Source: a virus. From it: 24,552 nt of DNA. The position numbers and the translations under genes were made by a program. How positions within the stretch are numbered: position 1 is the stretch's first letter; each line of letters begins with the position of its first letter. Shown in pieces: positions 1 to 24,552 of the stretch. A model generated the notes under the pieces. It saw only the letters and a program-made list of their open reading frames with translations, was not told where the DNA came from and did no database searches. Location of the stretch: the IMG/VR virus record IMGVR_UViG_3300032092_000242, positions 1 through 24,552 of that record. One strand, 5' to 3'.

Positions 1-1
1 A

Positions 2-303: not shown

Positions 304-307
304 GAAA

Positions 308-712
308 ATGGCAACAACAATAATAACAACAACTAGAGAATGGCGAGATTTAGATTTAAATTTCAATATTCATCCAATCCGTAAAGACATTAACAAACAC
401 AGGGCTGAGTTTGCGGTAATTAATTCCATTAAGAATTTAATTTTAACTAATCACTATGAGATCCCTTTTCAACCAGAAATTGGATGTAATATTCGAAAGC
501 TTTTGTTTGAACCATTGGATATGATCACAGCATCTTTAATTGACCGTGAAATTGTAGAAACAATAAACAATTTTGAGCCAAGAGCAAATGTTACAAAAAT
601 TGTTGTTTCTCCAGATTTCGATAATAATGGTTTTAAAGTTGAATTATTGTTTCAAATTATTAATAGAACCGATCCGATAGCAATCAAATTTTTCTTAGAG
701 CGAGTCCGATAA
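308..712 (+). CDS. 25: Baseplate wedge subunit, gp25-like
   Basis: This 134-residue protein matches the size of T4 gp25 (132 residues). It carries the family signature: an IG.N.RKLLFEP segment at about residues 58-69, then an N-FEPR motif with Glu-Pro-Arg at 90-92. That EPR motif is shared by gp25 and the TssE sheath-initiator proteins of type VI secretion. In T4, gp25 sits at the inner baseplate next to gp6 and helps start sheath polymerisation. The ATG at 308 is the only reasonable start, since the next Met is at residue 72. No ribosome-binding site is visible; the late-promoter motif occupies that space. The stop codon TAA (710-712) abuts the ATG of the gp6-like gene, which suggests translational coupling. 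Confidence 0.93.
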   Translation: MATTIITTTREWRDLDLNFNIHPIRKDINKHRAEFAVINSIKNLILTNHYEIPFQPEIGCNIRKLLFEPLDMITASLIDREIVETINNFEPRANVTKIVVSPDFDNNGFKVELLFQIINRTDPIAIKFFLERVR

Positions 713-2764: not shown

Positions 2765-2768
2765 TTAA

Positions 2769-5315: not shown

Positions 5316-5318
5316 ATA
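5311..5318 (+). promoter_or_regulatory. T4-late-promoter-like motif CATAAATA before the gp8-like gene
   Basis: CATAAATA lies in a 15-mer (5306-5320) identical to the one before the gp25-like gene. It overlaps the last codons of the preceding gene (TGA ends at the base before the next gap) and ends six bases before the ATG at 5325. T4 spacing would again put the transcript start at about the ATG. No Shine-Dalgarno sequence is present between motif and ATG. Confidence 0.6.
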
Positions 5319-5324
5319 GATTTT

Positions 5325-6926: not shown

Positions 6927-6935
6927 GGACGGTCA

Positions 6936-12869: not shown

Positions 12870-13097
12870 ATGCCATTAGTACAAGTTAACGATTCTACTT
12901 TTGTTCGAGATACTCATTCCAAAGCCATTCTAAATACAGACATAAATGGTTTAAATGAGTATCGTATGAAGCGTGAAATCTCTAAACGCCAGCAAGAAGA
13001 AAAACAACAAGATAAACAACGACTGGATAAGCTAGAACAAGATATGCAAGATATTAAACAGTTGTTATTGCAAATTGCTGCAAATCAGGATAAGTAA
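12870..13097 (+). CDS. Small coiled-coil protein of the tail gene cluster
   Basis: The protein has 75 residues. The N-terminal 30 residues contain a short motif (FVRDTHSKAILNTD, then GLNEYRMKR). I recall similar motifs in small proteins that follow the large tail gene in other aquatic T4-like phages. From about residue 33 to the end it is highly charged and Gln-rich, with a heptad pattern (LDKLEQDMQDIKQLLLQIA), so a parallel coiled coil is very likely. It starts three bases after the 1976-residue gene. Its TAA stop overlaps the next ATG as TAATG (13095-13099), implying coupled translation. A linker, trimerisation or assembly role is plausible but unproven. Confidence 0.75.
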   Translation: MPLVQVNDSTFVRDTHSKAILNTDINGLNEYRMKREISKRQQEEKQQDKQRLDKLEQDMQDIKQLLLQIAANQDK

Positions 13098-13921
13098 TGC
13101 CTATAATTTCACAATTAAATACCGCAAACACATTCAGTCAATGGTTGACGGGAACACAAGACCTCATCACAAGGACTAACTCCTTGGTCGAAGGTGGCAG
13201 TGGCTCCATTTTCTATTCAAATACCAACCTTTCGGTTGCTAACAACCTTACAATTGGTGGCGATTTAACAGTATCGGGAAATATTGTCCTTGATTCAATT
13301 AGTTTTGATGATATCAACTCTAATGGTTCGGCTTCTTTTGCAAACAATCTATCTGTAACAGGTAACACAACTTTAACTAATCTTGCTGTATCTGGATCAG
13401 CAAATATTTCCACTTTAACAAGTGCATCCGGTCTATTAACTTCATCTACAAATATTCTTGTCAATGGATTTGCATTTTCTTCAAATGCTAATGTAAGAAC
13501 TGGTGTTACTACTTTTGCTGTTACGAATTCAGGTTCAGGTGCTTATCTATTTGACCAATATTCTGGTAACAATCCTGACATATATTTACATCCAGGCCAA
13601 ACAGTTTCATTTAATATTAATGCTTCAGGACATCCATTTTTAATAAGACAGTCAAATGGCGGAGTACTTTATAATGTAGGACTTACTCATGTATCAACAG
13701 CTGGTGTTGTTACTACTGAAAGTGGTGCTCAAGCAAAAGAAACTGGAACACTTATCTGGAAAGTTCCTTTTGCATTAACAGGTAACACTTATGTTTACCA
13801 GTGTCAAAATCACTCAGGTATGGTAGGCAACTTAATTATACAACAAACTGTAACAGCTGTTGGACTTATAGCCTCAGCTGTTTCAGGTGATGGCCTGGCC
13901 TTTGCAATTGCACTAGGTTAA
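13097..13921 (+). CDS. Fibre-like tail protein with C-terminal cupredoxin-like domain
   Basis: The protein has 274 residues. Residues 1-35 look like a baseplate-attachment segment (SQLNTANTFSQWLTGTQDLI). Residues about 45-130 are fibre-like beta repeats (LTIGGDLTVSGNI, NNLSVTGNTTL, LAVSGSANIST). Residues about 138-250 look like a cupredoxin fold: GQTVSFNINASGHPFLI, a central strand, then TYVYQCQNHSGMVGNLII. His179, Cys236, His239 and Met242 fall where type-1 copper ligands lie in plastocyanin-like domains, although the C-x2-H-x2-M spacing is shorter than in plastocyanin. I recall similar domains in marine cyanophage tail proteins. Copper binding is inferred. The C-terminus (GLAFAIALG) resembles that of the 14285 fibre. 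Start ATG 13097 overlaps the previous stop. Confidence 0.75.
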   Translation: MPIISQLNTANTFSQWLTGTQDLITRTNSLVEGGSGSIFYSNTNLSVANNLTIGGDLTVSGNIVLDSISFDDINSNGSASFANNLSVTGNTTLTNLAVSGSANISTLTSASGLLTSSTNILVNGFAFSSNANVRTGVTTFAVTNSGSGAYLFDQYSGNNPDIYLHPGQTVSFNINASGHPFLIRQSNGGVLYNVGLTHVSTAGVVTTESGAQAKETGTLIWKVPFALTGNTYVYQCQNHSGMVGNLIIQQTVTAVGLIASAVSGDGLAFAIALG

Positions 13922-13924
13922 ATA

Positions 13925-13932
13925 GATAAATA
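13925..13932 (+). promoter_or_regulatory. Late-promoter-like GATAAATA within a tandem TAAATAGA
   Basis: The octamer TAAATAGA occurs twice in tandem at 13919-13934, the first copy beginning in the TAA stop codon of the preceding gene. The second copy makes a full NATAAATA match (13925-13932). With T4 spacing, transcription would start near 13938, leaving about 16 bases before ATG 13954. AAGGA at 13940-13944 would then be a usable ribosome-binding site. This is the best-formed promoter-leader-gene arrangement in the window. Confidence 0.65.
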
Positions 13933-13953
13933 GAATATCAAGGAAAATAAAAG

Positions 13954-14271
13954 ATGGCTAATACCTTCAAGAATTATTTCGGTGCAAATGTATCCGCAAA
14001 TACTACAATTTTTACCGCTGGCAGTGGTGTCTCAGCAACTGTCATTGGCATGTCCATTGCAAACTTAACAACTTCTCCAGTAAGTTGTAATGTGTTTGTA
14101 ACTGCAAGTGCAGCTGACTATTACATGGTTCGAAATGCTACGATTGCAGTCGGAGGCGCCTTTGTTCCGATTGGTGGAGATCAGAAGTTGGTCCTAGAGG
14201 CAACAGATGCAATTAAGGTTTCATCATCAGCCGGGTGTGATGTGATCCTGTCTGTCCTAGAAATAACTTAA
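13954..14271 (+). CDS. Small beta-rich virion structural protein
   Basis: The 105-residue product is almost entirely predicted beta strand. Short hydrophobic segments (VSATVIGMSIANLT, SCNVFVTASA, YYMVRNATIAVGGAFVPIGG) are separated by small polar turns, and it ends in an Asp-Ala-Ile-Lys-Val strand (TDAIKVSSSAGCDVILSVLEI). The layout parallels the 125-residue protein at 14954: a strand about the component's measured variable, an I.VP.G- or VPIGG-type turn, then a D.I.+.SS segment and a final strand before E-I. They may be distant relatives. I recognise no named family. It has its own late-promoter-like site and Shine-Dalgarno sequence, so it is probably an abundant virion protein such as a fibre collar, tip or decoration subunit. 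Confidence 0.7.
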   Translation: MANTFKNYFGANVSANTTIFTAGSGVSATVIGMSIANLTTSPVSCNVFVTASAADYYMVRNATIAVGGAFVPIGGDQKLVLEATDAIKVSSSAGCDVILSVLEIT

Positions 14272-14284
14272 TTGGAGTTAACTA

Positions 14285-14947
14285 ATGTCTTTTCTAGGTA
14301 ACACACCCACCACTCAGTCATTTACATCTCTTACTGAAAGATTCAATGGCGATGGTAGCACAACTACTATCACATTGTCTAGAGCGGTGTATAATCCCTC
14401 TGACATTGAAGTTCTTGTTAACAATGTTCAACAGGATCCATATGAGGCATATACTGTAAACGGAACACAAACCCTCACGTTTACTGGAGCACCATCAGTT
14501 GGCACTGGTAATATTATTGTTACCTATCGCAACTATACAATCACTAAATTTATTCCTGCTGAAGGTACTTTAACTGCTGCATCAATTATAGACGGTTCAA
14601 TTACTGGTGTCAAGCTTGCATCTAGTACAATTACTGGCGATAAGATTGGATTGACTGCAATTACTGGTAACCTGATAGCTGCTACCACTATTACAGGCGA
14701 TAAACTTGGCCTATCATCAATCACTAGTAATCTGATTGCAGCTAACGCTATAACTACAGCAGCAATTGCAGATGGTTCAATCAATACATCCGAACTAGCA
14801 TCAGGAGCTGTAACAGGCGATAAGATTGGCCTTACAGCAATCAACGCAAATAACATCGTTGACGGAACAATTTCAAACGCAAAACTTGCATCACCAGGTG
14901 CAACAACAGGAAAGGCAATAGCGATGGCTATTGTATTTGGAGGATAA
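14285..14947 (+). CDS. Tail fibre-like protein A with pentad-repeat shaft
   Basis: The protein has 220 residues. Residues 1-80 form a beta domain (MSFLGNTPT, FNGDGSTTTITL, TLTFTGAP) that is clearly paralogous to the start of the gene at 17989. Residues 101-210 are an unusually regular shaft: 22 consecutive five-residue units, each beginning with I, L or V with few exceptions (ITGDK, LGLSS, ITSNL, IAANA). Such repeats are common in phage fibre shafts and probably build an elongated beta structure. The C-terminus ends in AIAMAIVFGG. GGAG at 14274-14277, seven bases before the ATG, supports the start. Bases 14687-14817, coding for the middle of the shaft, are repeated perfectly in the 17989 gene. 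Confidence 0.78.
   Translation: MSFLGNTPTTQSFTSLTERFNGDGSTTTITLSRAVYNPSDIEVLVNNVQQDPYEAYTVNGTQTLTFTGAPSVGTGNIIVTYRNYTITKFIPAEGTLTAASIIDGSITGVKLASSTITGDKIGLTAITGNLIAATTITGDKLGLSSITSNLIAANAITTAAIADGSINTSELASGAVTGDKIGLTAINANNIVDGTISNAKLASPGATTGKAIAMAIVFGG
14687..14817 (+). repeat. 131-bp perfect direct repeat, copy 1
   Basis: This segment of the fibre A shaft is identical, base for base by eye, to 18349-18479. Both copies are in the same reading frame (residues about 135-178 here). The first mismatch on the right is C14818 versus T18480; on the left the sequences diverge just before ACTATTACAGG. Identity at synonymous positions over 131 bp, next to flanks that differ freely, points to recent duplication or recombination rather than protein-level selection. 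Confidence 0.95.
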
Positions 14948-14953
14948 AACTAA

Positions 14954-15331
14954 ATGGCCGCACCTAATATTGTCAACGTATCGTTGATTAATGCAAATTC
15001 AAACAACATGACCTTGTCTACCACAAGTGAGATTGGTTTGCTTAGCAATCCAGCTTCAAGTGGTAAAGTTTACAAAATTAATACTATTCTAGTAGCAAAC
15101 AGAGAGACTAATGCTAATTCAGTTAATGTAACAGTTAACGTCTATACTGGTGCTGCACTGACTGGTTCAGGATTCCCAATTGCACAATTAATTCCAGTTC
15201 CAGGTAGTACTACTTTGGTTATTATTGATAAATCAACGTCATTTTATTTGGAAGAAAACGAATCTATTGGTATTAAATCCGGAACTTCTAATGGCCTTGC
15301 CAGTTTGATTTCTTGGGAAGAAATTTCTTAA
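14954..15331 (+). CDS. Small beta-rich virion structural protein
   Basis: The 125-residue product is a predicted beta sandwich. A strand KVYKINTILVANR is followed by VNVTVNVYTGA, the turn LIPVPGSTTLVIIDKSTS, and the closing segment FYLEENESIGIKSG with a final ISWEEIS. I recall similar 100-130-residue virion proteins in other aquatic T4-like phages, often with the same LEE(N/D)-ESI segment, but cannot name the family. Its overall layout parallels the protein at 13954. GGAGGA at 14939-14944 overlaps the end of the preceding gene and sits nine bases before ATG 14954, a strong ribosome-binding site. It stands between the fibre A gene and the first glycine-rich gene of cassette 1. Confidence 0.7.
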   Translation: MAAPNIVNVSLINANSNNMTLSTTSEIGLLSNPASSGKVYKINTILVANRETNANSVNVTVNVYTGAALTGSGFPIAQLIPVPGSTTLVIIDKSTSFYLEENESIGIKSGTSNGLASLISWEEIS

Positions 15332-15343
15332 TTGGCGTAAAAG

Positions 15344-16198
15344 ATGTCCAAACGCTATCCTGGCGGATATATCTCCGCAACAATAAACCCTTTTTTGTTA
15401 AATGGGGAAGCACTGTTTACGGTTCCTGGGGCTTATACATGGGTTTGCCCTGATGGTGTGACGCTTGTTTCTGTTCTTTGTGTAGGTGCTGGCGGCAGTG
15501 GTCGCAGAGATGATACTTACGCATTTGGAAGTGGCGGGGGTGGTCTTCGTTACTACAATAACTTTGCGGTCACTCCCGGCGCTTCTTACCAGTTAACTGT
15601 TGGCGCAGGAGCAGCTGCAGGAGTAACTGCGGTCGCTGGCGGTGATAGTTGGTTTAATGGCGTATCTACAGCAACAGCTACGGTTTGGGCTGGCGGTGGC
15701 GGTGTAAACAACACAAGTAGTGGTAGTGGCGGTGCGGGCGGCACAGGGTCAACTATTGCGGGTTCTATTGGCGGTGGCGATGGCGGTGCTGGCGGGAATA
15801 GAGCTGCATCAACTTCTGGTGGAGGCGGCGGCGCAGGCGGGTATTCTGGTAATGGAGGCGCAGCTGGTGCTGTAGGAACAGGCGGAGGAGGCGGCGGCGG
15901 GGGCACAGGTTCTACCGACGCTAGTGGTGGTGGTGGAGGTGTTGGTCTCTTTGGTCAAGGCACAAATGGTGCTGCTGGAACAGGTACAACTGGCGGCGGC
16001 GGTGCAGGATCAAGCGGCTCTAATGGTGGCAGTGTTGCAGGCCTACAGATTAATGGTGGCACCTACGGAGGCGGCGGCGCTAGCCGTGATTCAGCTTCTG
16101 GTAATGGGGGTCGTGGCGGTGGCGGTGCAGTTCGTATTATTTGGTCTGGTTATCCTACAATCACCCGTACATTTCCATCAACCAACGTAGTGAGATAA
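15344..16198 (+). CDS. Glycine-rich tail adhesin-like protein, family A, copy 1
   Basis: The protein has 284 residues. A short unique N-terminus is followed by an ordered beta head (residues about 26-60: FTVPGAYTWVCPDGVTLVSV then LCVGAGG) and by a glycine-dominated body to about residue 255. It ends with AVRIIWSG and TRTFPST. Family A has three members in this window (here, 16201 and 18939). They share the head pattern Y-[ST]-W-V-x-P-x-G-V-T, the GVGL.G.G.NGA.G motif and the AVRIIW...R.FPST tail. Gly-rich tip adhesins with polyglycine-II helices are known from gp38 of T2-type and S16 phages, so a receptor-binding role is attractive. Fold and function here are inferred. The body is GC-richer than the baseplate genes because of its GGN codons. 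Confidence 0.75.
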   Translation: MSKRYPGGYISATINPFLLNGEALFTVPGAYTWVCPDGVTLVSVLCVGAGGSGRRDDTYAFGSGGGGLRYYNNFAVTPGASYQLTVGAGAAAGVTAVAGGDSWFNGVSTATATVWAGGGGVNNTSSGSGGAGGTGSTIAGSIGGGDGGAGGNRAASTSGGGGGAGGYSGNGGAAGAVGTGGGGGGGGTGSTDASGGGGGVGLFGQGTNGAAGTGTTGGGGAGSSGSNGGSVAGLQINGGTYGGGGASRDSASGNGGRGGGGAVRIIWSGYPTITRTFPSTNVVR

Positions 16199-16200
16199 TC

Positions 16201-17109
16201 ATGGCTGTAGGTATTTTAACATTAAAACAGATAGCACAAGCTGTAGGTTCAAAGACATTAACGGTTAATCAAGGTCAGAATTTTTATACCGGTGTTGGTA
16301 CATATTCATGGGTTGCTCCAGTAGGAGTTACTGCGGTTTCCGTTGTCTGCGTAGGAAAAGGCGGTACTGGAGGACCTTCCCAAAGAACAATCTGTGCTGT
16401 TGATTCTGACACATATGATGGAGGAGGTGGAGGAGGAGGGGGAGGTTTAATGTTTTTAAACAATTACTCTGTAACACCGGGCACTTCGTACACGGTTTCA
16501 ATAAGCTCAGGTGGTTCTGCTACATTTGTTAGTTCATCCGTAGCAGAAGGTAGAATAGGCGGTACTGGTGGCAGTAGTAATGGTGGTGTTGGCGGCACTA
16601 CCTCAGGCAGTGCCCAGGCGGTAGGTTTTGATGGTGGCGCTGGCGGTAACGGAAAAAGCGGCTCAAGCAGTCAACAAGACGCAGACGGTGGAGGCGGCGG
16701 AGGTGCTGCTGGATACCAAGCTGAAAGTGGTGCTGGTGGTAATGATCCGAGTGGTGGTAATGCAGGAATTGGCGGCGGAGGAGGCGGAGGAGGTAGTGGC
16801 CTTACTGGTGATGGTTCTGTTTCTCGATCTGGCGGAGGTGGAGGTGGTGTTGGTCTTTTAGGGCAAGGATCCAACGGAGCTGCTGGAACAACCACAGGAG
16901 GCGGTGGTGGTGGTGGTAGTGATGGCGCAAACGGAACTACCGGTGCAATTGGTGATGGTGTTGCAGGTGGTGCATATGGTGGTGGTGGAGGCGGTGCAGG
17001 AGCCAACCTTGCCGGTAATACTAATGGGGGTACTGGCGGCCCAGCCGCAGTTAGAATTATATGGGGTGCAGGTCGGGCATTTCCTTCAACAAACACAGGA
17101 GATTTATAA
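16201..17109 (+). CDS. Glycine-rich tail adhesin-like protein, family A, copy 2
   Basis: The protein has 302 residues when started at ATG 16201, two bases after the preceding stop. An in-frame ATG at 16141 would overlap the previous gene by 58 bases and add residues without family resemblance, so I reject it. After a 28-residue N-terminus comes the head (FYTGVGTYSWVAPVGVTAVS), then VVCVGKGG, an 11-Gly run, the motif GVGLLGQGSNGAAG and the tail AAVRIIWGAGRAFPST. The body is nearly all Gly, Ser, Ala, Asn and Thr, as in a polyglycine-II or similar glycine-bonded structure. Its stop overlaps the next gene as TAATG at 17107-17111. A role as a tip or receptor-binding subunit is inferred from the family and position. 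Confidence 0.75.
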   Translation: MAVGILTLKQIAQAVGSKTLTVNQGQNFYTGVGTYSWVAPVGVTAVSVVCVGKGGTGGPSQRTICAVDSDTYDGGGGGGGGGLMFLNNYSVTPGTSYTVSISSGGSATFVSSSVAEGRIGGTGGSSNGGVGGTTSGSAQAVGFDGGAGGNGKSGSSSQQDADGGGGGGAAGYQAESGAGGNDPSGGNAGIGGGGGGGGSGLTGDGSVSRSGGGGGGVGLLGQGSNGAAGTTTGGGGGGGSDGANGTTGAIGDGVAGGAYGGGGGGAGANLAGNTNGGTGGPAAVRIIWGAGRAFPSTNTGDL

Positions 17110-17606
17110 TGGAACTTTTTATTCGCATCGTAGATGGTCAGCCTTTTGAGCACCCAATTATGGGTGATAACTTTCGTCAAGCATTCCCTCATATTGACGT
17201 TAACAATTTGCCCGCAGAATTTGTAAAGTTTGAGCGTGTTGAATGCCCATATTTAGCAACAACTTTTCAAGTAGATGAAGCAGATTATCAATGGGATAAC
17301 GGAATTGTAAAAGATGTTTGGTTTGTGCGTGAAATGACTGATGAAGAACGTGCAGTAAAAATGCAACAATTTACAGACAGTGCCAATAGAGCTGTTGAGT
17401 TCTTTAAAGAAACGGCACAGGAAAAAATTGAATCTGCGCCGAATGAAGAAGCTCGTCAAGCGTGGGTCGATTACCTTGCAGCACTTAATGCGTGGGTGTT
17501 AGTTGATGCTGTTAACCCACAGTACCCAGCTAAGCCCGCTGTTAAAGCTGATGGCACACTAGTTGACTTAACTGTTTCGGGAAGTGAGCCAAATGTTGTC
17601 GGTTAA
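17109..17606 (+). CDS. Tail accessory (possible fibre-assembly) protein, paralog of the 19936 gene
   Basis: The protein has 165 residues with ATG 17109 in the TAATG overlap; an upstream in-frame ATG at 17061 lies inside the previous gene and is not used by the paralog. Residues 1-80 align without gaps at first with the 19936 product: M-x-L-x-I at the start, His15-Pro16, Asn21 with Gln24-Ala25-Phe26, a V.-ERVE-.P segment, DVW, and R.MT.EE at about 74-80. The C-terminal half differs: a charged helix (AVEFFKETAQEKIES), then a Trp-containing segment and a Pro-rich end. Phage genes placed right after adhesin genes often encode chaperones for their assembly, so that is the best guess. I do not recognise a named family. 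Confidence 0.7.
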   Translation: MELFIRIVDGQPFEHPIMGDNFRQAFPHIDVNNLPAEFVKFERVECPYLATTFQVDEADYQWDNGIVKDVWFVREMTDEERAVKMQQFTDSANRAVEFFKETAQEKIESAPNEEARQAWVDYLAALNAWVLVDAVNPQYPAKPAVKADGTLVDLTVSGSEPNVVG

Positions 17607-17898
17607 ACCGCTTGAAAATATGGGAGATATTCATGGCGGCATGTATGACTTTGAAAAAGCAGGAGACATTCTGCCCAAACATATTCATAACGAAAATAAT
17701 GTTCACATCACAATTGTTGCTCGTGGAAAAATAAAAGCCTACTCACACGACTGGGAAAAAGAAGCTGTGGCAGGACAACTGATGGATTTTCGTCCCGGTG
17801 AGCCTCATGAAATAATGGCGCTTGAGGATAACACTCGTATCTTCAATATTGTTAAAAAGTTTGGTGGTGTGTCTGACGATACGCAAACGGTATACTAA
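17593..17898 (+). CDS. Small cupin-domain protein
   Basis: The 101-residue product overlaps the previous gene by 14 bases. I choose ATG 17593 over GTG 17584 because GGGAAG at 17579-17584 sits eight bases before the ATG. Cupin motif 1 is seen as G24-x5-H30-x-H32 with G45 following; the position usually held by Glu is His38. Motif 2 is seen as G61 with PGEPH (68-72), giving His72. His30, His32, His38 and His72 could bind a metal. Single-domain cupins include isomerases, dioxygenases and simple binding proteins, so the reaction cannot be told. Its place at the end of an adhesin cassette, mirrored by the 2OG oxygenase in the next cassette, suggests a role linked to the adhesins or to host-surface sugars. 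Confidence 0.8.
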   Translation: MLSVKPLENMGDIHGGMYDFEKAGDILPKHIHNENNVHITIVARGKIKAYSHDWEKEAVAGQLMDFRPGEPHEIMALEDNTRIFNIVKKFGGVSDDTQTVY

Positions 17899-17932
17899 TA
17901 TAGGAAGCATTTGATAATGTCATCCTATATTA
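17896..17932 (+). terminator. Strong hairpin at the end of cassette 1
   Basis: TAATATAGGA (17896-17905) pairs perfectly with TCCTATATTA (17923-17932). Inside, GCATT can pair with AATGT (one G-U pair) around a TGAT loop. The stem starts in the TAA stop codon of the cupin gene. No U-tract follows; instead a late-promoter-like site begins at the next base. It may be a terminator, an RNA-processing site or a 3' stabiliser. The hairpin is certain; its function is inferred. Confidence 0.6.
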
Positions 17933-17940
17933 ACTAAATA
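17933..17940 (+). promoter_or_regulatory. Late-promoter-like ACTAAATA at the start of cassette 2
   Basis: The 15-mer ACTAAATAGAGTAAA (17933-17947) is identical to 21422-21436 before the third fibre gene; the next eight bases also match in five positions. It has the TAAATAGA core but C in place of A at the second motif position. It follows directly on a hairpin. A leader of about 40 bases would carry AAAGG at 17976-17980, eight bases before the TTG start at 17989. The conserved spacing and duplication argue for a working promoter. Confidence 0.6.
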
Positions 17941-17988
17941 GAGTAAACAATCAATACTAAGCCCAACGCAATATAAAAGGATAATAAA

Positions 17989-18936
17989 TTGGCCTTCCTT
18001 GGAAATCTACCCACATCAGCGACCTTTGCTATTGACTCCTTCAATGGTGACAATAGCACAGTCAACTTTACCTTGCGTGAAGCACCAGTAACCACTAGCT
18101 CTATTCTTGTGTTCGTTGGTGGTATTCGCCAGCATACAGATACATATTCGTTATCTAGCACAACACTTACCTTCTCAGAAGCACCACCAACAGGCACAAA
18201 TAATATCCAAGTATTGTTCCTTGGACTTGGTGCTAGTCCACATATTCCATCAGACTTCTCTGTATCTACAGTTAAAATTCAGACTAATGCTATTACTGGT
18301 GACAAGATTGCACCAACTACATTAACTGGCAACCTGATAGCATCAGCAACTATTACAGGCGATAAACTTGGCCTATCATCAATCACTAGTAATCTGATTG
18401 CAGCTAACGCTATAACTACAGCAGCAATTGCAGATGGTTCAATCAATACATCCGAACTAGCATCAGGAGCTGTAACAGGTGATAAACTTGGAACAGGCTC
18501 AGTTACCTCCAATAGTTTTGCACCAACAGTCACAACAGGTAATGTTAACCTATCTGGTGCAACTAGTTTTCTCAGTACAGTATTTGAAACAGCCAATGTG
18601 ACTACCTTGATGGGTGCTAATACAACTATTAATGTGGCACAACCACTTATAGTATTTACTGCTAACTCATCTGCAAACAGTACAATTAACTTTACAGGTC
18701 TTGCTGGTATGCCAGTAGGTAATACTGCATCGTTTACTATTATTAATCCAAATAGTGCTAATGGAAAATATATTAACGTATATCAAGTTGATGGTAGTGC
18801 AACAATCGTAAAATGGGCAGGAGGTGCACCACTTGGCGGTACATCAGCCAACACGGACATATATTCATTCAGTATTATTAAAACCTCTGCAACACCAACT
18901 TACAATGTGTTTGCATCTGTACAGAGTTTCTTTTAA
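17989..18936 (+). CDS. Tail fibre-like protein B with pentad-repeat shaft (TTG start)
   Basis: The protein has 315 residues. The TTG start at 17989 is supported in two ways: AAAGG lies eight bases upstream, and the first residues (MAFLGNLPT) align in register with MSFLGNTPT of the 14285 gene. Residues 1-80 are the shared N-terminal beta domain (FNGDNST, TLTFSEAP). Residues about 101-180 are five-residue units beginning with I, L or V, as in fibre A, including the stretch coded by the 131-bp direct repeat. The C-terminal 130 residues are unrelated to fibre A: a beta domain (TTINVAQPLIVFTANSSANS, then MPVGNTASFTIINPN and a YNVFASVQSFF end). That domain is a good candidate tip or tip-attachment region. 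It heads cassette 2. Confidence 0.78.
   Translation: MAFLGNLPTSATFAIDSFNGDNSTVNFTLREAPVTTSSILVFVGGIRQHTDTYSLSSTTLTFSEAPPTGTNNIQVLFLGLGASPHIPSDFSVSTVKIQTNAITGDKIAPTTLTGNLIASATITGDKLGLSSITSNLIAANAITTAAIADGSINTSELASGAVTGDKLGTGSVTSNSFAPTVTTGNVNLSGATSFLSTVFETANVTTLMGANTTINVAQPLIVFTANSSANSTINFTGLAGMPVGNTASFTIINPNSANGKYINVYQVDGSATIVKWAGGAPLGGTSANTDIYSFSIIKTSATPTYNVFASVQSFF
18349..18479 (+). repeat. 131-bp perfect direct repeat, copy 2
   Basis: This is the second copy of 14687-14817, 3,662 bp away, in the same orientation and coding frame (residues about 121-164 of fibre B). The two copies enclose the rest of fibre A, the 125-residue protein, two glycine-rich genes, an accessory gene, the cupin, a hairpin and a promoter. 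Crossing over between them would join the N-terminus of fibre A to the C-terminus of fibre B in frame. Confidence 0.95.
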
Positions 18937-18938
18937 TT

Positions 18939-19898
18939 ATGCCTTTATTTCGAAAATTAGTTAGTGTTCCCAAAGCAGCTAGTGTTGGTAAGAGGAAAGA
19001 AAGAGCAGCTTTTGTTGCACCTCCGGGCCAAGATTCTTACACAACGGCAGGTAATTACTCTTGGGTTGCACCAGCTGGGGTAACCTCTGTCTCTGTTGTT
19101 ACTGTTGGAGGTGGTGGTGGATCCGGAAAAGGAAATGCCAGTGGTGTTCCTGGTGGCGGCGGAGGCGGTGGCCTTGGATATCGTAATAACATTACTGTTG
19201 TTCCCGGTGTTTCGTATGCAGTAGTTGTTGGCGTTGGTGGTCCTGGATCAACAACTACTGCTACCTCCGGTACTGCTGGTGGTGCCTCTTCGTTTGTAGC
19301 AGGAACCACCACATCAGGTTCTGGTGGTAATCCGGGCACGTATGTTTTTGGAACCACTGGCGTCGGTGGATCGGGTGGTTCATATGCCGGTGATGGCGGT
19401 GGTAATGGTGGTGCTGGTGCATCTTCTAGCGGCGCCAATGGCGGAGGTGGCGGTGGTGCCGGAGGGTATTCTGGCAATGGTGGTACAGCTGCTCCTGATG
19501 CTAGTGTCGCTGGAGGTAATGGCGTCGGTGGTGGCGGAGGAGGCGGCGGCGGCGGGGCCAATGGCGTTGCTTGCGAAAACTCAACGAATGGAGGCGGTGG
19601 CGCTGGCGGCGGTGTGGGCTTATTAGGCGAAGGCTCAAATGGTGCTGGAGGCGCTATAGCTGTATATGGCGAAGGTGGTTTTGGTGGAGGAGGCGGCTCA
19701 AGCGGTGCTGCAGGTGGCACCACCAACCCCAGTAGCTATGGGTTTTCCAGTGGCGGGTTGCGTGGTGGAGGGGGTGGTGCTGGTACTAAGGGTTCTGGAA
19801 CTTTTGCTAATGGGGGGTCTGGAGGTGCTGGCGCAGTCCGTATCATCTGGCCCGGCACAACTCGCACATTCCCTTCAACACGCACGGCGAATGAATAA
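18939..19898 (+). CDS. Glycine-rich tail adhesin-like protein, family A, copy 3
   Basis: The protein has 319 residues and starts two bases after fibre B. Its N-terminus is basic and unlike the other copies (MPLFRKLVSVPKAASVGKRK). The family A head follows (residues about 33-58: YTTAGNYSWVAPAGVTSVSV), then a long glycine body including runs of 7 to 12 Gly. It has the GGGGGAGGYSGNGG segment shared with copy 1, the GVGLLGEGSNGAGG motif and the tail AVRIIWPGTTRTFPST. A single Cys lies in ANGVACENST. The basic N-terminus may be an attachment segment that fits it to a different partner than copies 1 and 2. Receptor binding is inferred. Its TAA stop overlaps a late-promoter-like site. Confidence 0.75.
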   Translation: MPLFRKLVSVPKAASVGKRKERAAFVAPPGQDSYTTAGNYSWVAPAGVTSVSVVTVGGGGGSGKGNASGVPGGGGGGGLGYRNNITVVPGVSYAVVVGVGGPGSTTTATSGTAGGASSFVAGTTTSGSGGNPGTYVFGTTGVGGSGGSYAGDGGGNGGAGASSSGANGGGGGGAGGYSGNGGTAAPDASVAGGNGVGGGGGGGGGGANGVACENSTNGGGGAGGGVGLLGEGSNGAGGAIAVYGEGGFGGGGGSSGAAGGTTNPSSYGFSSGGLRGGGGGAGTKGSGTFANGGSGGAGAVRIIWPGTTRTFPSTRTANE

Positions 19899-19904
19899 TA
19901 AATA
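19897..19904 (+). promoter_or_regulatory. Weak late-promoter-like AATAAATA before the accessory and oxygenase genes
   Basis: AATAAATA fits NATAAATA but lacks the GA that follows the motif in the other sites of this window. It overlaps the stop codon of the glycine-rich gene and lies 31 bases before ATG 19936, with TAGGA at 19923-19927 as a ribosome-binding site. The 37-base gap is extremely AT-rich, so a chance match is possible. Confidence 0.35.
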
Positions 19905-19935
19905 ATTGATTAATTAGTTAGTTAGGATAAAAAAT

Positions 19936-20409
19936 ATGAATCTTTATATTGAAACTGAAAACAGCACAATTAAAAATCACCCTGCTTTTGAGAACAACCT
20001 AATCCAAGCATTTGGTTCAGTCCCTGCACACTGGGAGACATTCATTCGTGTTGAGCGCCCTATTTTGGGCGTATATGAGTTGATGACCGCAGAAGAACCT
20101 ACTTACGAAAAAGTAGATGGTGTTTGGACTGATGTGTGGCATAAACGTGACATGACTGCGGAAGAAAAGACTGCTAAACAACAGGATGTTATTACTGCGT
20201 TTAATGACCGTGACCAAGCATCTAATTGGTCAGCATGGACTTTAGATGAGGCCACTTGCACAATGCAACCTCCAATCCCACGGCCTGAACCTGTAGAAGG
20301 TAAAATTGTTTTCTGGTGCGGCGCAGATGCCAACTGGAAAGAAACTCCGGCTCGTCCAGAAGGCGAGTACAAGTTTGATTTCTTTGCATGGGATTGGGTT
20401 GCAGCATGA
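19936..20409 (+). CDS. Tail accessory (possible fibre-assembly) protein, paralog of the 17109 gene
   Basis: The protein has 157 residues. Its N-terminal 80 residues align with the 17109 product: the M-x-L-x-I start, His15-Pro16, Asn21, Gln24-Ala25-Phe26, an FIRVERP segment, DVW at 66-68, and R.MTAEEK at 71-78. The C-terminal half is different and rich in Trp and Pro (NWSAWTLDEATCTMQPPIP, then FWCGADANWKETP and FFAWDWVAA). This W..de...W.pP layout occurs in several phage virion proteins I have seen, and may be a small binding module. TAGGA at 19923-19927 supports the start. The end overlaps the oxygenase gene (ATGA), so the two are probably translated together. Chaperone function is a guess from position. 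Confidence 0.7.
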   Translation: MNLYIETENSTIKNHPAFENNLIQAFGSVPAHWETFIRVERPILGVYELMTAEEPTYEKVDGVWTDVWHKRDMTAEEKTAKQQDVITAFNDRDQASNWSAWTLDEATCTMQPPIPRPEPVEGKIVFWCGADANWKETPARPEGEYKFDFFAWDWVAA

Positions 20410-21113
20410 GCAAAGTAGCCAAAAAACAAAAAGTCTGCAAAGCCGCTGAATCAGTAGCTCAAGTTGTTCTTCAAACACAACTTCAAGTTGCATACCATTT
20501 TCCGTGCCCAATTTACATCATTGAGCGACCTGATTTCTTAGAAGCAGTAAACGCTATTTCTGAAGAAGCCTTGGAAGTCCAGCGCAAAGAACGTGATCTC
20601 AATGAAATCTACCCTGTATACATGACAGGCAATTATTTTGGCGACTCACGCATGGCGGAGTTTTCTGAGTTTGTTGGCGCTACAGCTTGGAACATTCTTA
20701 ATGAACAAGGTTACGCCATGCAAAACAAAGCTGTGCAGTTTACAGAAATGTGGACGCAAGAACACCACAAACACTCTGCAATGGATGCTCACGTTCATGG
20801 CTTTGGCTCACAAATCACAGGATTTTATTTTCTTGAAACTCCAGAAAACTGTTCTCACGTTGTTTTCCATGACCCCCGTTCAGGCAAAGTTCAAATTGAT
20901 TTGCCTGAGCAAGACATGAACATGGCAACTCCTGCCAGTAAGATGATTAACTTTACGCCAAAACCCGGCATGATGATCTTTGCTAATTCATGGTTGTCTC
21001 ATTCGTTTACACGCCATGCGGCAGAACTACCAATTAAGTTTGTGCATTTCAACTTGACCGTGATTCAACAACCGCAGGCCTGCGCTATGCCACCAGCCGC
21101 AGAAATTATATGA
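20406..21113 (+). CDS. 2OG-Fe(II) oxygenase family protein
   Basis: The protein has 235 residues from ATG 20406, in an ATGA overlap with the previous gene; an in-frame ATG 18 bases upstream is inside that gene. The second half fits the putative 2OG-Fe(II) oxygenase family of T4-like cyanophages (PF13759 type). It has an AHVHGFGSQITGFYFLE strand with His129 and His131, an HDPR motif at 155-158, and PKPGMMIFANSWLSHSF with the distal His199 followed by a KFVHFN strand. One or both of His129/131 together with His199 would bind iron. The residue that usually binds the 2-oxoglutarate carboxylate is Arg in this family; here Lys211 stands there. The family hydroxylates proteins, nucleic acids or small molecules; the substrate here is unknown. 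The place between adhesin genes suggests a virion or surface target. Confidence 0.82.
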   Translation: MSKVAKKQKVCKAAESVAQVVLQTQLQVAYHFPCPIYIIERPDFLEAVNAISEEALEVQRKERDLNEIYPVYMTGNYFGDSRMAEFSEFVGATAWNILNEQGYAMQNKAVQFTEMWTQEHHKHSAMDAHVHGFGSQITGFYFLETPENCSHVVFHDPRSGKVQIDLPEQDMNMATPASKMINFTPKPGMMIFANSWLSHSFTRHAAELPIKFVHFNLTVIQQPQACAMPPAAEII

Positions 21114-21364
21114 ACACATATAAAATTCGGTTCAATAAGTCGAGAGGTCAAGCTGGTCGAGGCTCAATGGATCATGTCTGGCGTGTTTTTGAAAACGGCA
21201 AAGAATTTTTGTTTAAGAATTTAGACATTACCGTTCCTGTTAAGAGCGAAAAAGATGCTAATGGAGTTGACTACAATATCACTTGCCAAGGTTACATGAC
21301 AATGGATCGAGACACCTCTACAGCAGTCATCACATCCACGGTCAAGGAACTAGAGCCAGCATGA
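21110..21364 (+). CDS. Small conserved phage protein of 84 residues, function unknown
   Basis: ATG 21110 overlaps the oxygenase stop as ATGA. The sequence is ordered and charged (YKIRFNKSRGQAGRGSMDHV, then WRVFENGKEFLFKNL and ITCQGYMTMDRDTSTAVI), unlike the low-complexity fibre proteins around it. From memory, short proteins with the same RFNKSRGQ.GRG..DHVWRVFE and D+.TSTA.I segments occur in marine T4-like phages, often near the tail genes. No catalytic motif or membrane segment is seen. Overlap with the oxygenase suggests the two are made in a fixed ratio and may work together; that is inference only. It ends cassette 2. Confidence 0.72.
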   Translation: MNTYKIRFNKSRGQAGRGSMDHVWRVFENGKEFLFKNLDITVPVKSEKDANGVDYNITCQGYMTMDRDTSTAVITSTVKELEPA

Positions 21365-21406
21365 TGTGTGATTGAGCTAAACAACCATAACACATACATC
21401 ATAATC

Positions 21407-21421
21407 CAAACTCCCAGTTTG
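21407..21421 (+). terminator. Hairpin(s) before cassette 3
   Basis: CAAACT-CCC-AGTTTG (21407-21421) is a perfect six-base stem with a three-base loop. It ends exactly where the promoter element begins. A second, looser hairpin pairs ATGATGT (21361-21367) with ACATCAT (21396-21402). Neither has a U-tract. Together they fill most of the 94-base gap. Like the hairpin at 17896, they may end or protect the upstream transcript; evidence for termination is only structural. Confidence 0.45.
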
Positions 21422-21429
21422 ACTAAATA
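21422..21429 (+). promoter_or_regulatory. Late-promoter-like ACTAAATA at the start of cassette 3
   Basis: ACTAAATAGAGTAAA (21422-21436) repeats the 15-mer at 17933 exactly, again directly after a hairpin and before a pentad-repeat fibre gene. The ATG at 21459 follows after an AT-rich leader without a clear Shine-Dalgarno sequence. Confidence 0.6.
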
Positions 21430-21458
21430 GAGTAAATAACCAATAAAATAATAAAAAT

Positions 21459-22295
21459 ATGGCACTCTCAAAAATCACAGCAGATAGTATTACATCAAAT
21501 GTAATTACTTCAGCACTCATTGCTGATGGTCAAATTACCTTTGCTGATATCGCAAACAACTCAATCACTGGTGATAAATTAGCATCAGGTGTAACTTTAA
21601 CTAATCCTGTAGCATCTATTGCTAATGGAACTGTGTATACAACTTCTTCCGTTGGTAATATTCTTACTGTGCAGAACACAACTGCAAATGGTTACGCTGG
21701 CATTCAATTCCTTAGTGAACCTTCCGTAGGAAACGCAGGTCAGGCCGCAATTAACAGCTTTGCGCCTGCAACCGGTGACTCAATACTGGCTTTTTCAACA
21801 AGACAAGCGGCAGTACTTTCGGAAAAAGTTCGCATTAACGCATCAGGCGATGTAGGTATTGGAACAAGTTCGCCTGATAGCAAACTTCATATCACAGGTA
21901 ATACTACTAGTATTGTTGCAATAAAGATTACTAACAACAATGCAACTGGCGTAGATAAATATATCAATATGTTTGCTGGAGGAAATAACACAATTGTTTA
22001 TCCTGCCGCTTGGAATAACTCTGGAGTTATTGAATCTGCCGTTGGAGATAATTTTGTTTTAAGTGCGTACAACGGAACAATGTTATTTTATACAGGCACA
22101 AGTAGAACAGAACGGTTTCGCATTGGTTCATCAGGTGAACTTGGTATTGGCGGTGCAACATACGGCACATCAGGCCAAGTATTAACATCTGGCGGTGCTA
22201 ACGCAGCGCCTACATGGGCAAACACATCTTCGAGTGGTGGTTCTGGCGGCACCGGCGGAAATTTATATCTAGCAGTCAATTTTGGAGGATTTTAA
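21459..22295 (+). CDS. Tail fibre-like protein C
   Basis: The protein has 278 residues. Residues 6-44 are pentad units (ITADS, ITSNV, ITSAL, IADGQ, ITFAD, IANNS, ITGDK) like the shafts of fibres A and B, but here at the very N-terminus and without the shared beta domain. The rest is typical fibre sequence: KVRINASGDVGIGTSSPDS with KLHITG, a beta region, then RFRIGSSGELGIGGATYGTS and GQVLTSGGANAAPTWAN near the C-terminus. The VGIGTSSP and FRI...GELGIG pairs often stand before intramolecular-chaperone (peptidase S74) domains. Here the protein ends soon after in a short glycine stretch and YLAVNFGGF, with no such domain. It probably forms a trimeric fibre; attachment point unknown. It heads cassette 3. 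Confidence 0.78.
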   Translation: MALSKITADSITSNVITSALIADGQITFADIANNSITGDKLASGVTLTNPVASIANGTVYTTSSVGNILTVQNTTANGYAGIQFLSEPSVGNAGQAAINSFAPATGDSILAFSTRQAAVLSEKVRINASGDVGIGTSSPDSKLHITGNTTSIVAIKITNNNATGVDKYINMFAGGNNTIVYPAAWNNSGVIESAVGDNFVLSAYNGTMLFYTGTSRTERFRIGSSGELGIGGATYGTSGQVLTSGGANAAPTWANTSSSGGSGGTGGNLYLAVNFGGF

Positions 22296-22297
22296 AC

Positions 22298-22780
22298 ATG
22301 GCAGTTACAGCAACACCAGTATTTACACAGACCCCTGATGTAGGGGCAAACAATGCCGTCATTCAGACGGCAATGACCAACACAAAGGCTTTTGACGGTA
22401 CTGAAGCCACTGGCCAATCAATGGCACTTGTCTTTACTGGAGGCCCTAATGGTTCTCGTATTGACCAAGTGATGTGTCGTTTGGCTTCAACGAATGGAGC
22501 TACAGCTTCTGGTACATCAGCGGCTACTGTGGTTCGTTTCTGGATCAATAACGGTTCAGTCAACACTACAGCTAATAATAACATCTTCTTGGGTGAGGTT
22601 GCAATTCCTGCAACTGCTGTTACCGCTTTGGGAACAACTGCGCTAACCACTTACCCCTTGACCTTACCTTTGAATGGTTTAAACATCCCTACTTCTTACC
22701 GCATCTATGGTGGTTTGACTGTAGCGGCTGGCGGTACAAACGTGGGTATCGCTTTATCTGCATTCGGCGGAGACTACTAA
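22298..22780 (+). CDS. Beta-rich structural protein of 160 residues, family not recognised
   Basis: ATG 22298 is preceded by GGAGG at 22284-22288, nine bases upstream, inside the end of fibre C; an in-frame ATG at 22214 lies well inside that gene and is rejected. The product is rich in Ala, Thr, Gly and Asn with predicted beta strands (QSMALVFTGGPNGSRIDQVM, TVVRFWINNG, NNIFLGEVAIPA, SYRIYGGLTVAAGG). In composition and in strand order it recalls virion beta-sandwich proteins such as those at 13954 and 14954. A similar small protein stands between fibre and glycine-rich genes in cassette 1, so it may connect fibre and tip. No enzyme motif is visible. Confidence 0.65.
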   Translation: MAVTATPVFTQTPDVGANNAVIQTAMTNTKAFDGTEATGQSMALVFTGGPNGSRIDQVMCRLASTNGATASGTSAATVVRFWINNGSVNTTANNNIFLGEVAIPATAVTALGTTALTTYPLTLPLNGLNIPTSYRIYGGLTVAAGGTNVGIALSAFGGDY

Positions 22781-22781
22781 G

Positions 22782-23786
22782 TTGCCTCAGTCCCTTCAGC
22801 TTACGGCCTTTAACTATGTCGTTAATGAATTGGCTGTTGATATCCAGACGTTCACCTCGTCTGGTAAATGGATAAAGCCACCTCAAGCCAACATAGTACG
22901 TATCTGTGTGTGGGGCGGAGGTGGTGGCGGAGGTGGAGGTTTTTCTGGTTCAGCATCTACTTCTACTAGCGCAACTGGTGGTGGTGGTGGGGCTAGAGCA
23001 AGTTTAACTTTCCCTGCCGCGTGTTTACCCACACAAATCAATGTGACTGTTGGCGCTGGAGGAAATGGCGGAGCGGCTGGCGCAACTGGTATTGCTGGTG
23101 GAGCTTCATATTTTGGCCTTTCTACGGCTAATAACTTTTATCTTGTGGCTTTTGGTGGTGGGGCTGGTGGGGCTGGTATTACAGGTACAGCTACTACGAT
23201 AAGCGGTGGGAGTGGTGGAGGTACTGGCAGTACTGGTAACACGGCCTCAACGACTTTTGCTACTGGTGGGCTTCCATCTTCCCAATACTGGAGCGGAACA
23301 TGTAATCCAAATGCAATAGGCGGTGGCGGTGGTGGCGCTCAAGGCTCTACTGTTGTATCAGGCACTTCAGGTTCTGCTGAATGGGGCGGCGGTGCTGGCG
23401 GTAGAGGCGGAGAAGCCGCATCAACTTGCTACCGAGGTGGCGGCGGTTCAGTTTTTGGCGGCGGTGGTGGTGGCTCTGGTGGATCAATTGTTACTACTTT
23501 TAGACGCGGTACTGGCGGAGGAACTTCAGCTTATATAGGAAATCAATGTCTAAACCCTACCAATACTGCTGGCGTTAATGGCCCTGATGGATATACACAA
23601 ACATCTGGTAGCGGAAGTGGCGGCTTTGGTGGAAATAGTGCAACAGCCGCTTCTGCTGTTGGTGGTGCTGGTGGTAATGGTGGATTACCTGCTGGTGGCG
23701 GTGGTGGTGGTGGAAACTCTGATGCTGGAACTGGTGGCTCTGGCGGTATAGGCGGCAACGGTATGGTTCGTGTTTATTCTTGGTAA
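22782..23786 (+). CDS. Glycine-rich tail adhesin-like protein, family B, copy 1 (TTG start)
   Basis: The protein has 334 residues. The TTG start at 22782 is supported by GGAG at 22769-22772 and by exact register with the next gene: Thr8-Ala-Phe-Asn-Tyr12, QTFTSSG at 22-28, KPP at 32-34, Cys42, Trp44 and a nine-Gly run from 45 are at the same positions in both. The head (TFTSSGKWIKPPQANIVRI) is laid out like the family A head but differs in sequence, and the C-terminus is GMVRVYSW instead of AVRIIW. The body holds many Gly runs, several Cys (for example ACLPT, SGTCNPN, STCYRGG) and an AEWGGGAGG motif. The Cys residues are unusual against family A. A receptor-binding tip is inferred. Confidence 0.75.
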   Translation: MPQSLQLTAFNYVVNELAVDIQTFTSSGKWIKPPQANIVRICVWGGGGGGGGGFSGSASTSTSATGGGGGARASLTFPAACLPTQINVTVGAGGNGGAAGATGIAGGASYFGLSTANNFYLVAFGGGAGGAGITGTATTISGGSGGGTGSTGNTASTTFATGGLPSSQYWSGTCNPNAIGGGGGGAQGSTVVSGTSGSAEWGGGAGGRGGEAASTCYRGGGGSVFGGGGGGSGGSIVTTFRRGTGGGTSAYIGNQCLNPTNTAGVNGPDGYTQTSGSGSGGFGGNSATAASAVGGAGGNGGLPAGGGGGGGNSDAGTGGSGGIGGNGMVRVYSW

Positions 23787-23792
23787 TCAGCT

Positions 23793-24552
23793 ATGACAAT
23801 TACTAATCAACAAACAGCATTTAATTATCAAGTCACTGGCACTGATGCCAATGTACAAACATTTACGTCTTCTGGTATTTGGAACAAACCACCCAACATC
23901 AAACTAATCCGTGTATGTGTTTGGGGTGGAGGCGGTGGTGGTGGCGGCGGCAATAAAATTAATATTGCTTGTAATGCCGCTGGCGCTGGAGGCGGAGGCG
24001 GCGCTAGAGTTAGTAATTATTTCCAAGCCGCTTGTATACCCTTGCAGGTACAAGTAACCGTGGGTGCTGGCGGCGCTGGTGGTGCTGGTGGTACTAGTGT
24101 GCTTGGTTGCAATGGAAGTGTTGGTGGCACTACTACTTTTGGAACTTATTTATCTGCCTATGGTGGAGGCGGTGGGGCTGGTGGTAATTGTAGTGTCGAA
24201 TATAGCGGTGGTTCTGGAGGTGGAGGCAGCGGCGCAGGAGGTCTTTCTTCAACTACCGTTCGCAATGGTGGTCTTCCAAGCAGTACATTTTTTGGCGGCT
24301 CTACTGGGACTGACAACATGGGAACTGGCGGGGGCGCGGGTACCACAGGTTGCACTGGCAATGCCGAGTGGGGCGGCGCTGGAGGCGGTGGTTCTGTTTT
24401 TGCAAATACTGGCAGAAGAGGTAAAAGTTCTATTTATGGCGGTGCTGGTGGCGGCGGTGGCGGTGCTAGTGCTGGCGGTTCAGGCAATAATGGCGCGGAT
24501 GGAGGAAGTAACGGTTATTTTAGAGGTGGTGGTCCAACCGGTAACGGTACTG
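23793..24552 (+). CDS. Glycine-rich tail adhesin-like protein, family B, copy 2 (3' end outside window)
   Basis: ATG 23793 opens a frame that has no stop before the window edge, giving at least 253 residues. It is closely paralogous to the preceding gene: TAFNY at 8-12, QTFTSSGIWNKPP at 22-34, VCVWGGGG from 41, the AACIPLQVQVTVGAGG segment matching AACLPTQINVTVGAGG, a LPSS.F/Y segment, and AEWGG near the middle. As in copy 1, Cys residues are scattered through the body (IACNAAG, LGCNGS, GNCSVE, TGCTGN). Six bases separate it from copy 1, so the pair looks like a tandem duplication that has since diverged. The missing end should carry a VRV(Y/W)-type tail. Confidence 0.75.
   Translation, partial: MTITNQQTAFNYQVTGTDANVQTFTSSGIWNKPPNIKLIRVCVWGGGGGGGGGNKINIACNAAGAGGGGGARVSNYFQAACIPLQVQVTVGAGGAGGAGGTSVLGCNGSVGGTTTFGTYLSAYGGGGGAGGNCSVEYSGGSGGGGSGAGGLSSTTVRNGGLPSSTFFGGSTGTDNMGTGGGAGTTGCTGNAEWGGAGGGGSVFANTGRRGKSSIYGGAGGGGGGASAGGSGNNGADGGSNGYFRGGGPTGNGT

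Follow-up and report, generated by a model that had tools for sequence, protein, structure and literature searches.

Glycine-rich genes of the fibre region

We analysed a stretch of 24,552 nucleotides (IMG/VR virus record IMGVR_UViG_3300032092_000242, positions 1 to 24,552; hereafter the window, meaning this whole stretch), which is part of the genome of an aquatic, uncultured T4-like phage. Baseplate wedge genes at 308–6926 are followed by the gene of a 1976-amino acid (aa) DUF4815/VrlC-like protein and then by the fibre genes. In the fibre region a first-pass annotation, made from the letters alone, had proposed five glycine-rich genes in two families, and the open reading frames (ORFs) and their translations confirmed all five (A1, A2, A3, B1 and B2 in Table 1). 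We propose that these genes, together with a sixth one in the same population, quite probably encode the receptor-contacting fibre tips of this phage, occupying several slots and carrying exchangeable bodies of a TNF-like plus glycine-rich (TG) type.

The A1, A2 and A3 proteins (284, 302 and 319 aa) contain 33.1, 34.4 and 35.4% glycine, and B1 (334 aa) and B2 (253 aa, open at the window end) contain 31.7 and 33.6%. We compared local alignments with 200 same-composition shuffles and observed scores of 22.8 (A1–A2), 23.4 (A1–A3), 22.5 (A2–A3) and 23.3 (B1–B2) standard deviations (SD) above the shuffles, so that the similarity within each family is not a composition effect. The scores between the families were 4.5–8.1 SD above the shuffles. 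As these also exceed the shuffles, and as all five proteins point to the Pfam family PF21722 (Gly_rich_2, cut-off 24.3 bits), families A and B are distant relatives; the two groups hold together as had been proposed, but they are not unrelated. Four of the proteins are over the PF21722 cut-off, while A2, which is 48–51% identical to the other A members, stays under it at 12.3 bits (E 0.17). The head and body motifs originally listed were mostly found, except that A1 has YTWVCPDGVT in place of YSWV and B1 has ICVWGGGG, VCVWGGGG being present only in B2. A tblastn search with the whole A3 protein against cultured phages gave no match, which is no evidence of absence, because the low-complexity filter of BLAST probably masks such a glycine-rich query.

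An 11.4-kb contig, L014, is the same as positions 18782–24552 of the window (0 mismatches in 5771 nt) and runs past the window end. It completes B2 (327 aa), whose tail, lying outside the window and expected to be of VRV type, reads VKVYSW there. It also adds a third family-B gene (B3), a second oxygenase gene and a second 84-aa gene, and the population therefore has at least six of these candidate tip genes. We found 11 related loci with family A and 22 with family B, and collected the best 80 of 514 with the oxygenase; these loci are referred to below by L numbers. The order that recurs among them is shaft, 125- or 160-aa protein, one to three tips, a tail-fibre-assembly-like (Tfa-like) or other small gene, a 2-oxoglutarate (2OG)-Fe(II) oxygenase and the 84-aa gene. 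In the window, the family A cassette covers 14285–21364 and encloses another shaft and tip, and the family B cassette continues into L014. The cassette appears to cross phage types, since the upstream tail genes of some relatives (whose phage types were assigned only in part) differ from the baseplate genes of the window. Among cultured-phage proteins, those closest to the VrlC-like protein (~30–37% identity, none above ~37%) are from Ochrobactrum, Pelagibacter and cyanophages, and megablast of positions 1–12866 gave no near relative.

Table 1. Genes of the fibre region; coordinates are window positions unless a contig is named, and functional names are assignments from profile matches and gene position.
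Feature	Position	Strand	Basis and remarks
Fibre connector protein, C-terminus ...GDGLAFAIALG	13097..13921	+	phrog_677 'baseplate wedge tail fiber protein connector', E 7e-24
Fibre shaft 1, 220 aa, C-terminus ...GKAIAMAIVFGG	14285..14947	+	phrog_892 tail fiber protein, E 1.4e-15
125-aa protein in the shaft-tip interval	14954..15331	+	phrog_26609, E 3.6e-4; position and size class kept in L006, L010, L062, L072, L087
Tip A1: tag KRYPGGYISAT, TNF-like head, glycine lattice, tail AVRIIW..FPST	15344..16198	+	PF21722, 33.5 bits
Tip A2: N-terminus GILTLKQ, by eye like the GIWTxxQ tag; TG domain	16201..17109	+	phrog_4474, E 1.2e-36
Tfa-like protein	17109..17606	+	phrog_105/188/136 tail fiber assembly, E 3e-4 to 4e-3, weak
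Small cupin-like protein	17584..17898	+	PF07883, E 0.0022, under cut-off
Fibre shaft 2, 315 aa	17989..18936	+	phrog_892, E 7e-14
Tip A3	18939..19898	+	PF21722, 37.5 bits; phrog_4474, E 6e-37
Tfa-like protein 2	19936..20409	+	Aligns with the 17109 product and nine relatives; no PHROG assembly-family match itself
2OG-Fe(II) oxygenase of the A cassette	20388..21113	+	PF13759, E 5.4e-10, over cut-off; phrog_81, E 1e-17
84-aa orphan protein	21110..21364	+	ATGA overlap with the oxygenase
Fibre shaft 3, 278 aa, C-terminus NLYLAVNFGGF	21459..22295	+	phrog_18345 tail fiber protein, E 5e-11
160-aa protein between shaft and B1	22298..22780	+	Position kept in L015-L024 and L034; no Pfam/PHROG match
Tip B1 (slot 1), TTG start	22782..23786	+	PF21722, 34.7 bits
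Tip B2 (slot 2), truncated by the window end	23793..24552	+	PF21722, 44.6 bits; complete at L014 5012-5995

Predicted fold, slots and body exchange

Next, one member of each family was modelled with AlphaFold2 (AF2), using 16 aligned sequences for A1 and 18 for B1. The models had a predicted local distance difference test score (pLDDT) of 71 and a predicted template modelling score (pTM) of 0.79 for A1, and 78 and 0.82 for B1. Most strands lie in residues 1–125 and the last strand (AVRIIW or VRVYSW) is C-terminal; in both models a glycine lattice sits on a TNF-like beta head, in agreement with the beta head leading into a glycine body that had been anticipated. When compared by VIA-align, A1 matched the fibre of cyanophage Pam3 with Z 18.5 over 187 residues and mycobacteriophage Bxb1 gp33 with Z 13.7, and B1 matched Bxb1 gp33 with Z 21.9 over 208 residues and the Pam3 fibre with Z 16.6. 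The next structural rows, the TG domains of ALK/LTK, had Z of ~8–9 in both cases, far below Pam3 and Bxb1. Both proteins are thus predicted to have the TG fold, that is, a beta-sandwich head with glycine chains packed on it. In the available text of PMC13243192, the Pam3 and Bxb1 domains are termed polyproline-II (PPII) helical bundles resembling the S16 gp38 domain. By analogy with these matched structures, the polyglycine-II packing suggested earlier for the tips appears to be largely right, except that the head is TNF-like and not of the gp38 type.

We then compared diversity from contig to contig, leaving out ORFs with at least 20% proline, which are antisense to the glycine genes. Excluding duplicates and TG domains lacking a complete tail reduced the 90 A domains to 81 unique ones; the B set had 35. 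The entropy profile of the 81 A domains showed ten variable islands, rich in the small residues G, S, A, T and N, alternating with fixed glycine cores, while head and tail are fixed. The per-column entropy is clustered in both families, with a lag-1 r of 0.56 in A (at most 0.22 in 2000 shuffles) and 0.44 in B (shuffle maximum 0.19), and the expectation that the non-glycine islands are the most variable parts was borne out in this comparison.

The islands vary independently of the gene that flanks them. Across the 1378 pairs among 53 oxygenase-linked A tips, the mean island identity was 0.21–0.23 in every band of oxygenase identity below 0.99, including the 37 locus pairs at 0.90–0.99, and the head identity was 0.56–0.74. 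As island identity is flat across the bands, the tips diverge independently of the flanking gene. Three pairs reach an oxygenase identity of 0.99 or more; two of them have the same core, islands and tail, and in the third, L062 and L072, the island identity is 0.14. At the DNA level, these two loci are 97% identical over the shaft end, 83% through the small gene and the tag and head, and 92% from the tip tail through the oxygenase and 84-aa genes, whereas most of the TG body is unalignable. The loci align on both flanks and not over most of the body, from which we concluded that the TG body is exchanged as a block.

In contrast to the bodies, the N-terminal tags follow the position of the gene. 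The order A1-A2-A3 was observed in all five loci carrying all three A tags. The tag regions of the A proteins (24 of 29 usable, five having no recognisable head) had an identity of 0.74 to others of their slot and of 0.45 to those of other slots, while for the TG domains (n = 29) both values were 0.41. In the 11 loci with three B tips, every head (33/33) was nearest to a head of the same slot, and B1, B2 and B3 are therefore orthologous slots. Tags of the YPGG..GIWTLDQ type also head proteins that have no TG domain, namely three Laminin_G_3 stretches in L103, SBBP propeller repeats in L086 and DUF7483 in L087. This replacement of the TG body by other domains on the same tags is the best evidence that the tip position is a binding position, and it argues for several fixed positions rather than alternatives.

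Several observations were made beside these loci. Homing endonuclease genes (HNH, GIY-YIG) lie in or beside tip cassettes at L062 2489-2989, L087 7974-8732 and L094 1322-1963; in L094 the GIY-YIG enzyme is in frame behind a tip-tag start, which suggests that homing endonucleases may drive tip exchange. Of the near-identical contigs L016 (B2 at 5018-6112) and L017 (5018-5782), the latter has a shortened, frame-disrupted B2 and downstream genes shifted by 67 nt, which would be due to an assembly error or to a loss of sequence among the glycine codons. Proteins of a third glycine-rich class, with YRYYTFTSSGSITF or a like sequence as their tail, are present at L161 3-965, 972-2357 and 2703-3911 and at L109 1-924; the L161 proteins ride on the same slot tags and have their own small neighbour gene (MSHFAKVENG). 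The idea that this class is a circular permutation of the TG fold was unsupported, the profile scores of single and doubled copies being negative.

On these data, the tips might work as follows. From a TNF-like beta head, long glycine-rich chains would run out and back and pack as a polyglycine-II-type lattice, of which the non-glycine islands would form the variable face. A short N-terminal segment, consisting of the tag and in some phages of an additional fn3 domain, would fix the protein to its slot behind a shaft protein, probably aided by the 125- or 160-aa protein and the Tfa-like chaperone. The TG body would be swapped as a block between the conserved tag and head and the conserved tail, and other binding domains could take its place. 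The gene order, with baseplate genes followed by shafts, tips and Tfa-like genes, is the one expected for such tips. The earlier proposal of receptor-binding tips gains from the position of the genes behind fibre shafts and from the lectin-type domains that the same N-terminal tags carry in other phages, and receptor binding is what these features would suggest.

It is more likely that the many tip genes serve a multi-part tip, whose slots may share one fibre, or a number of fibres whose ends can be exchanged, than that they are five switchable alternatives. Multiple copies with divergent islands, and three shafts in one genome, could also be read as alternative adhesins that are expressed or used singly and give a wide or switchable host range, as the first-pass annotation had suggested. 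We regard this as improbable, because the slots are orthologous and kept as sets, with fixed order and tags, and because the region 13000–24552 contains no inverted repeat of at least 20 nt. Moreover, no recombinase or reverse transcriptase was among the family matches in the window, although the window is a fragment and a switch could lie elsewhere. Within this region nothing pointed to switching by inversion; the direct repeats found are glycine-codon repeats and one 208-nt shaft repeat. The proteins could also be structural decorations or spacers of the tail, their islands drifting as unconstrained loops; the best match of family B is Bxb1 gp33, a 'tail wing brush', and the islands are rich in small residues. 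This too is unlikely in our estimate, since whole bodies exchanged between near-identical flanks, and LamG or propeller domains standing in for the body behind the same tag, are what one would sooner expect of receptor-binding modules. That the glycine-rich frames merely resemble genes, or one another, through low complexity has next to no probability. Their glycine content is indeed high and proline-rich antisense ORFs arise as a by-product, but the within-family scores far exceed those of composition-matched shuffles, the non-glycine heads and tails are conserved in the 81 A and 35 B unique domains, and the predicted folds have a pTM of ~0.8.

A number of points weigh against the fibre-tip reading. 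The placement at the tip and the binding of a receptor are deduced from gene context, homology and predicted fold, and the Tfa-like assignment is weak. The glycine bodies were modelled at moderate confidence (pLDDT often 40–80), and neither model has a counterpart of the alpha-helical bundle by which Pam3 gp24 docks at its N-terminus, the pre-head segment being ~20 residues without a helix and with a pLDDT below 50. The TG fold need not mean a receptor binder, because Bxb1 gp33, which matches just as well, has been given the name tail wing brush. The B bodies have a slight slot memory (identity 0.30 within and 0.22 between slots), and the A1 and A2 N-termini of the window are shorter than the fn3-bearing slots of L006 and its relatives. 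The mean entropy of the A domains is 2.90 in the islands and 1.19 elsewhere, but this contrast is circular as the islands were defined from entropy, which does not affect the clustering test. The same definition affects the pairwise island test only in part, because the head and the core likewise vary in identity independently of the flanking enzyme.

The linked oxygenase, its partner and other neighbours

The oxygenase of the A cassette scored 40 bits with PF13759 (cut-off 27), and H135, H137, H205 and R209, putatively including the metal ligands, are invariant in 15 sequences. We examined its linkage to the tips in the best 80 of 514 oxygenase-seeded loci (10 having less than 1300 nt upstream and 2 less than 250 nt downstream, and so being unevaluable on that side) and in the best 80 of 539 loci seeded with the 84-aa protein (4 with less than 800 nt upstream), many contigs being common to both sets. 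A TG gene was present within 3 kb upstream in 67 of 70 evaluable oxygenase loci, and the 84-aa gene followed in 75 of 78, in 58 of them with an ATGA overlap. The three loci lacking a TG gene are L094 and L103, which have a non-TG protein on a tip tag in the last slot (LamG being seen in L103 only), and L109, where a different glycine-rich protein is encoded. With the oxygenases clustered at 95% identity, the counts were 59/62 for the TG gene and 62/65 for the 84-aa gene. From the side of the 84-aa protein, the oxygenase was upstream in all 76 evaluable loci and a TG gene in 60 of 65. On a tree of 96 unique oxygenases, the tip family changes once (mean 17.6 in 500 shuffles), and 95 of the 96 agree in tip family with their nearest neighbour.

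The 84-aa protein, 37 of whose 84 positions are invariant in 13 sequences, had no Pfam, PHROG, NCBIfam or credible PDB match. The two copies of the population (window 21110–21364 and L014 7901-8155) have 96% identity, against 58% for the oxygenases that accompany them. Both genes are rare in the cultured-phage collection (50,697 records), in which four records match the oxygenase and one matches the 84-aa protein. A related oxygenase is also present on two contigs of bacterial metagenome-assembled genomes, which may be binned phage DNA, and we assign no host.

If the association is functional, the oxygenase and its obligate 84-aa partner might be a dedicated modifier that hydroxylates tip residues in the infected cell and so tunes the chemistry or stiffness of the adhesin, in the manner of the collagen hydroxylases, which act on a glycine-repeat protein. 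We consider this speculative and rather unlikely. Proline and asparagine are the classical target residues of such oxygenases. Comparing 99 TG domains that have a linked oxygenase with five that lack one, we found no difference in either residue (p 0.24 and 0.88), and Asp plus Glu was lower (1.1 against 2.9%) and Cys and Tyr higher with the oxygenase; with five non-independent controls and 12 tests, the contrast gives no evidence for a target and speaks partly against a simple one.

That both genes are auxiliary metabolic cargo lying near the fibre genes, with no action on the tips, we judge to have an even chance. In the parts of PMC3037559 and PMC9599517 available to us, oxygenases of this kind in phages are given a metabolic reading, as auxiliary genes or as modulators of 2-oxoglutarate. 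Against a functional link also stand the phage record MW202545.1, in which the pair occurs and a tip gene was neither annotated nor found close by, and five A-type tip loci that lack the oxygenase despite at least 1.5 kb of downstream sequence. The cargo explanation has to face the regular position behind a TG gene and the tracking of tip family by enzyme type, although co-transfer of the cassette alone could give the same pattern. It also has to face the listing of Fe(II)-dependent oxygenases among the host-recognition genes of metaviromic islands in the available text of PMC3909814. A literature search, covering papers in part, found none on the modification of phage tips by an oxygenase. 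Were the oxygenase to modify tips, each tip family would have its own enzyme type, making matched adhesin-enzyme pairs.

Among the other neighbours, the Tfa-like gene at 17109 overlaps the A2 stop by 1 nt, and profile searches with its family gave no credible PDB or Pfam match. The cupin-like protein within the tip cassette is possibly another metal-binding partner, with possible relatives, by eye, at L086 4113-4436 and L132 3439-3786. Shafts 1 and 2 share a direct repeat of 208 nt (14622–14829 and 18284–18491, 90% identical), a likely site of recombination and of assembly breaks. The fibre proteins ending at 13921, 14947 and 22295 have similar hydrophobic C-termini (AFAIALG, AMAIVFGG and LAVNFGGF), possibly a docking surface for the next part. 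On the minus strand, the long proline-rich ORFs at 15586–15906, 16671–17192 and 19055–19726 are most simply by-products of glycine codons and not genes.

Comparison with known systems

For the most part, the sequences of uncultured aquatic phages do not reveal how they recognise their hosts. A code of tag, slot and body would predict the specificity-deciding segment and the exchange site across contigs with differing neighbouring tail genes, and the linkage described above makes it worth asking whether virion proteins are substrates of some of the phage 2OG-Fe(II) oxygenases that are commonly classed as metabolic cargo. The core idea of the first-pass annotation was right in kind, and a better name would be TNF-like plus glycine-rich fibre tips of the Pam3 gp24/Bxb1 gp33 type.

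One close likeness is to Pam3 gp24 (7ypx, 7yfw), a tail fibre whose TNF-like plus glycine-rich end is proposed to bind the receptor, according to the available text of PMC9608196. As predicted for the tips, a TNF-like head leads there into a glycine-rich lattice with variable distal ends; the small chaperone-like gene that adjoins it (gp25) may have a counterpart in the weakly matched Tfa-like gene at 17109. In Pam3 a single fibre protein docks through an N-terminal alpha-helical bundle, whereas the phage studied here has separate, small, short-tagged tips in several slots and separate shafts. Bxb1 gp33 (9d93) shares the predicted fold and gives a weak profile match (E 0.0027), but it belongs to another phage type and its named tail position differs. 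The TG receptor domain of ALK/LTK is of the same fold class and is part of an animal receptor kinase ectodomain; we claim no homology with it.

The T-even gp38 adhesins had been named as the model for these proteins. A glycine-rich PPII bundle with variable ends, on a protein separate from the fibre, is described for gp38 of T-even phages and S16 (available text of PMC9608196 and PMC13243192), and the tips probably resemble gp38 in this. An identity with gp38 was not upheld: the tips have a TNF-like head, as in Pam3 gp24, several copies and exchangeable bodies, whereas gp38 has a beta-helix (same text of PMC9608196), and no GP38 family (PF05268) appeared in the Pfam scan of the five proteins at E up to 1. 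S16 gp38 (6F45) was not among the structural matches listed for the models. A six-frame search of the window for the GP38 family gave 0 matches, which proves little since the control genomes also gave none.

Finally, the gene content resembles that of the metaviromic islands of marine phages, in which fibres, lectin-like proteins, Gp38 and Fe(II)-dependent oxygenases are listed together as variable host-recognition genes (PMC3909814, in the text available). In that text, no cassette, fold, slot or pairing of enzyme with tip is described for the islands.

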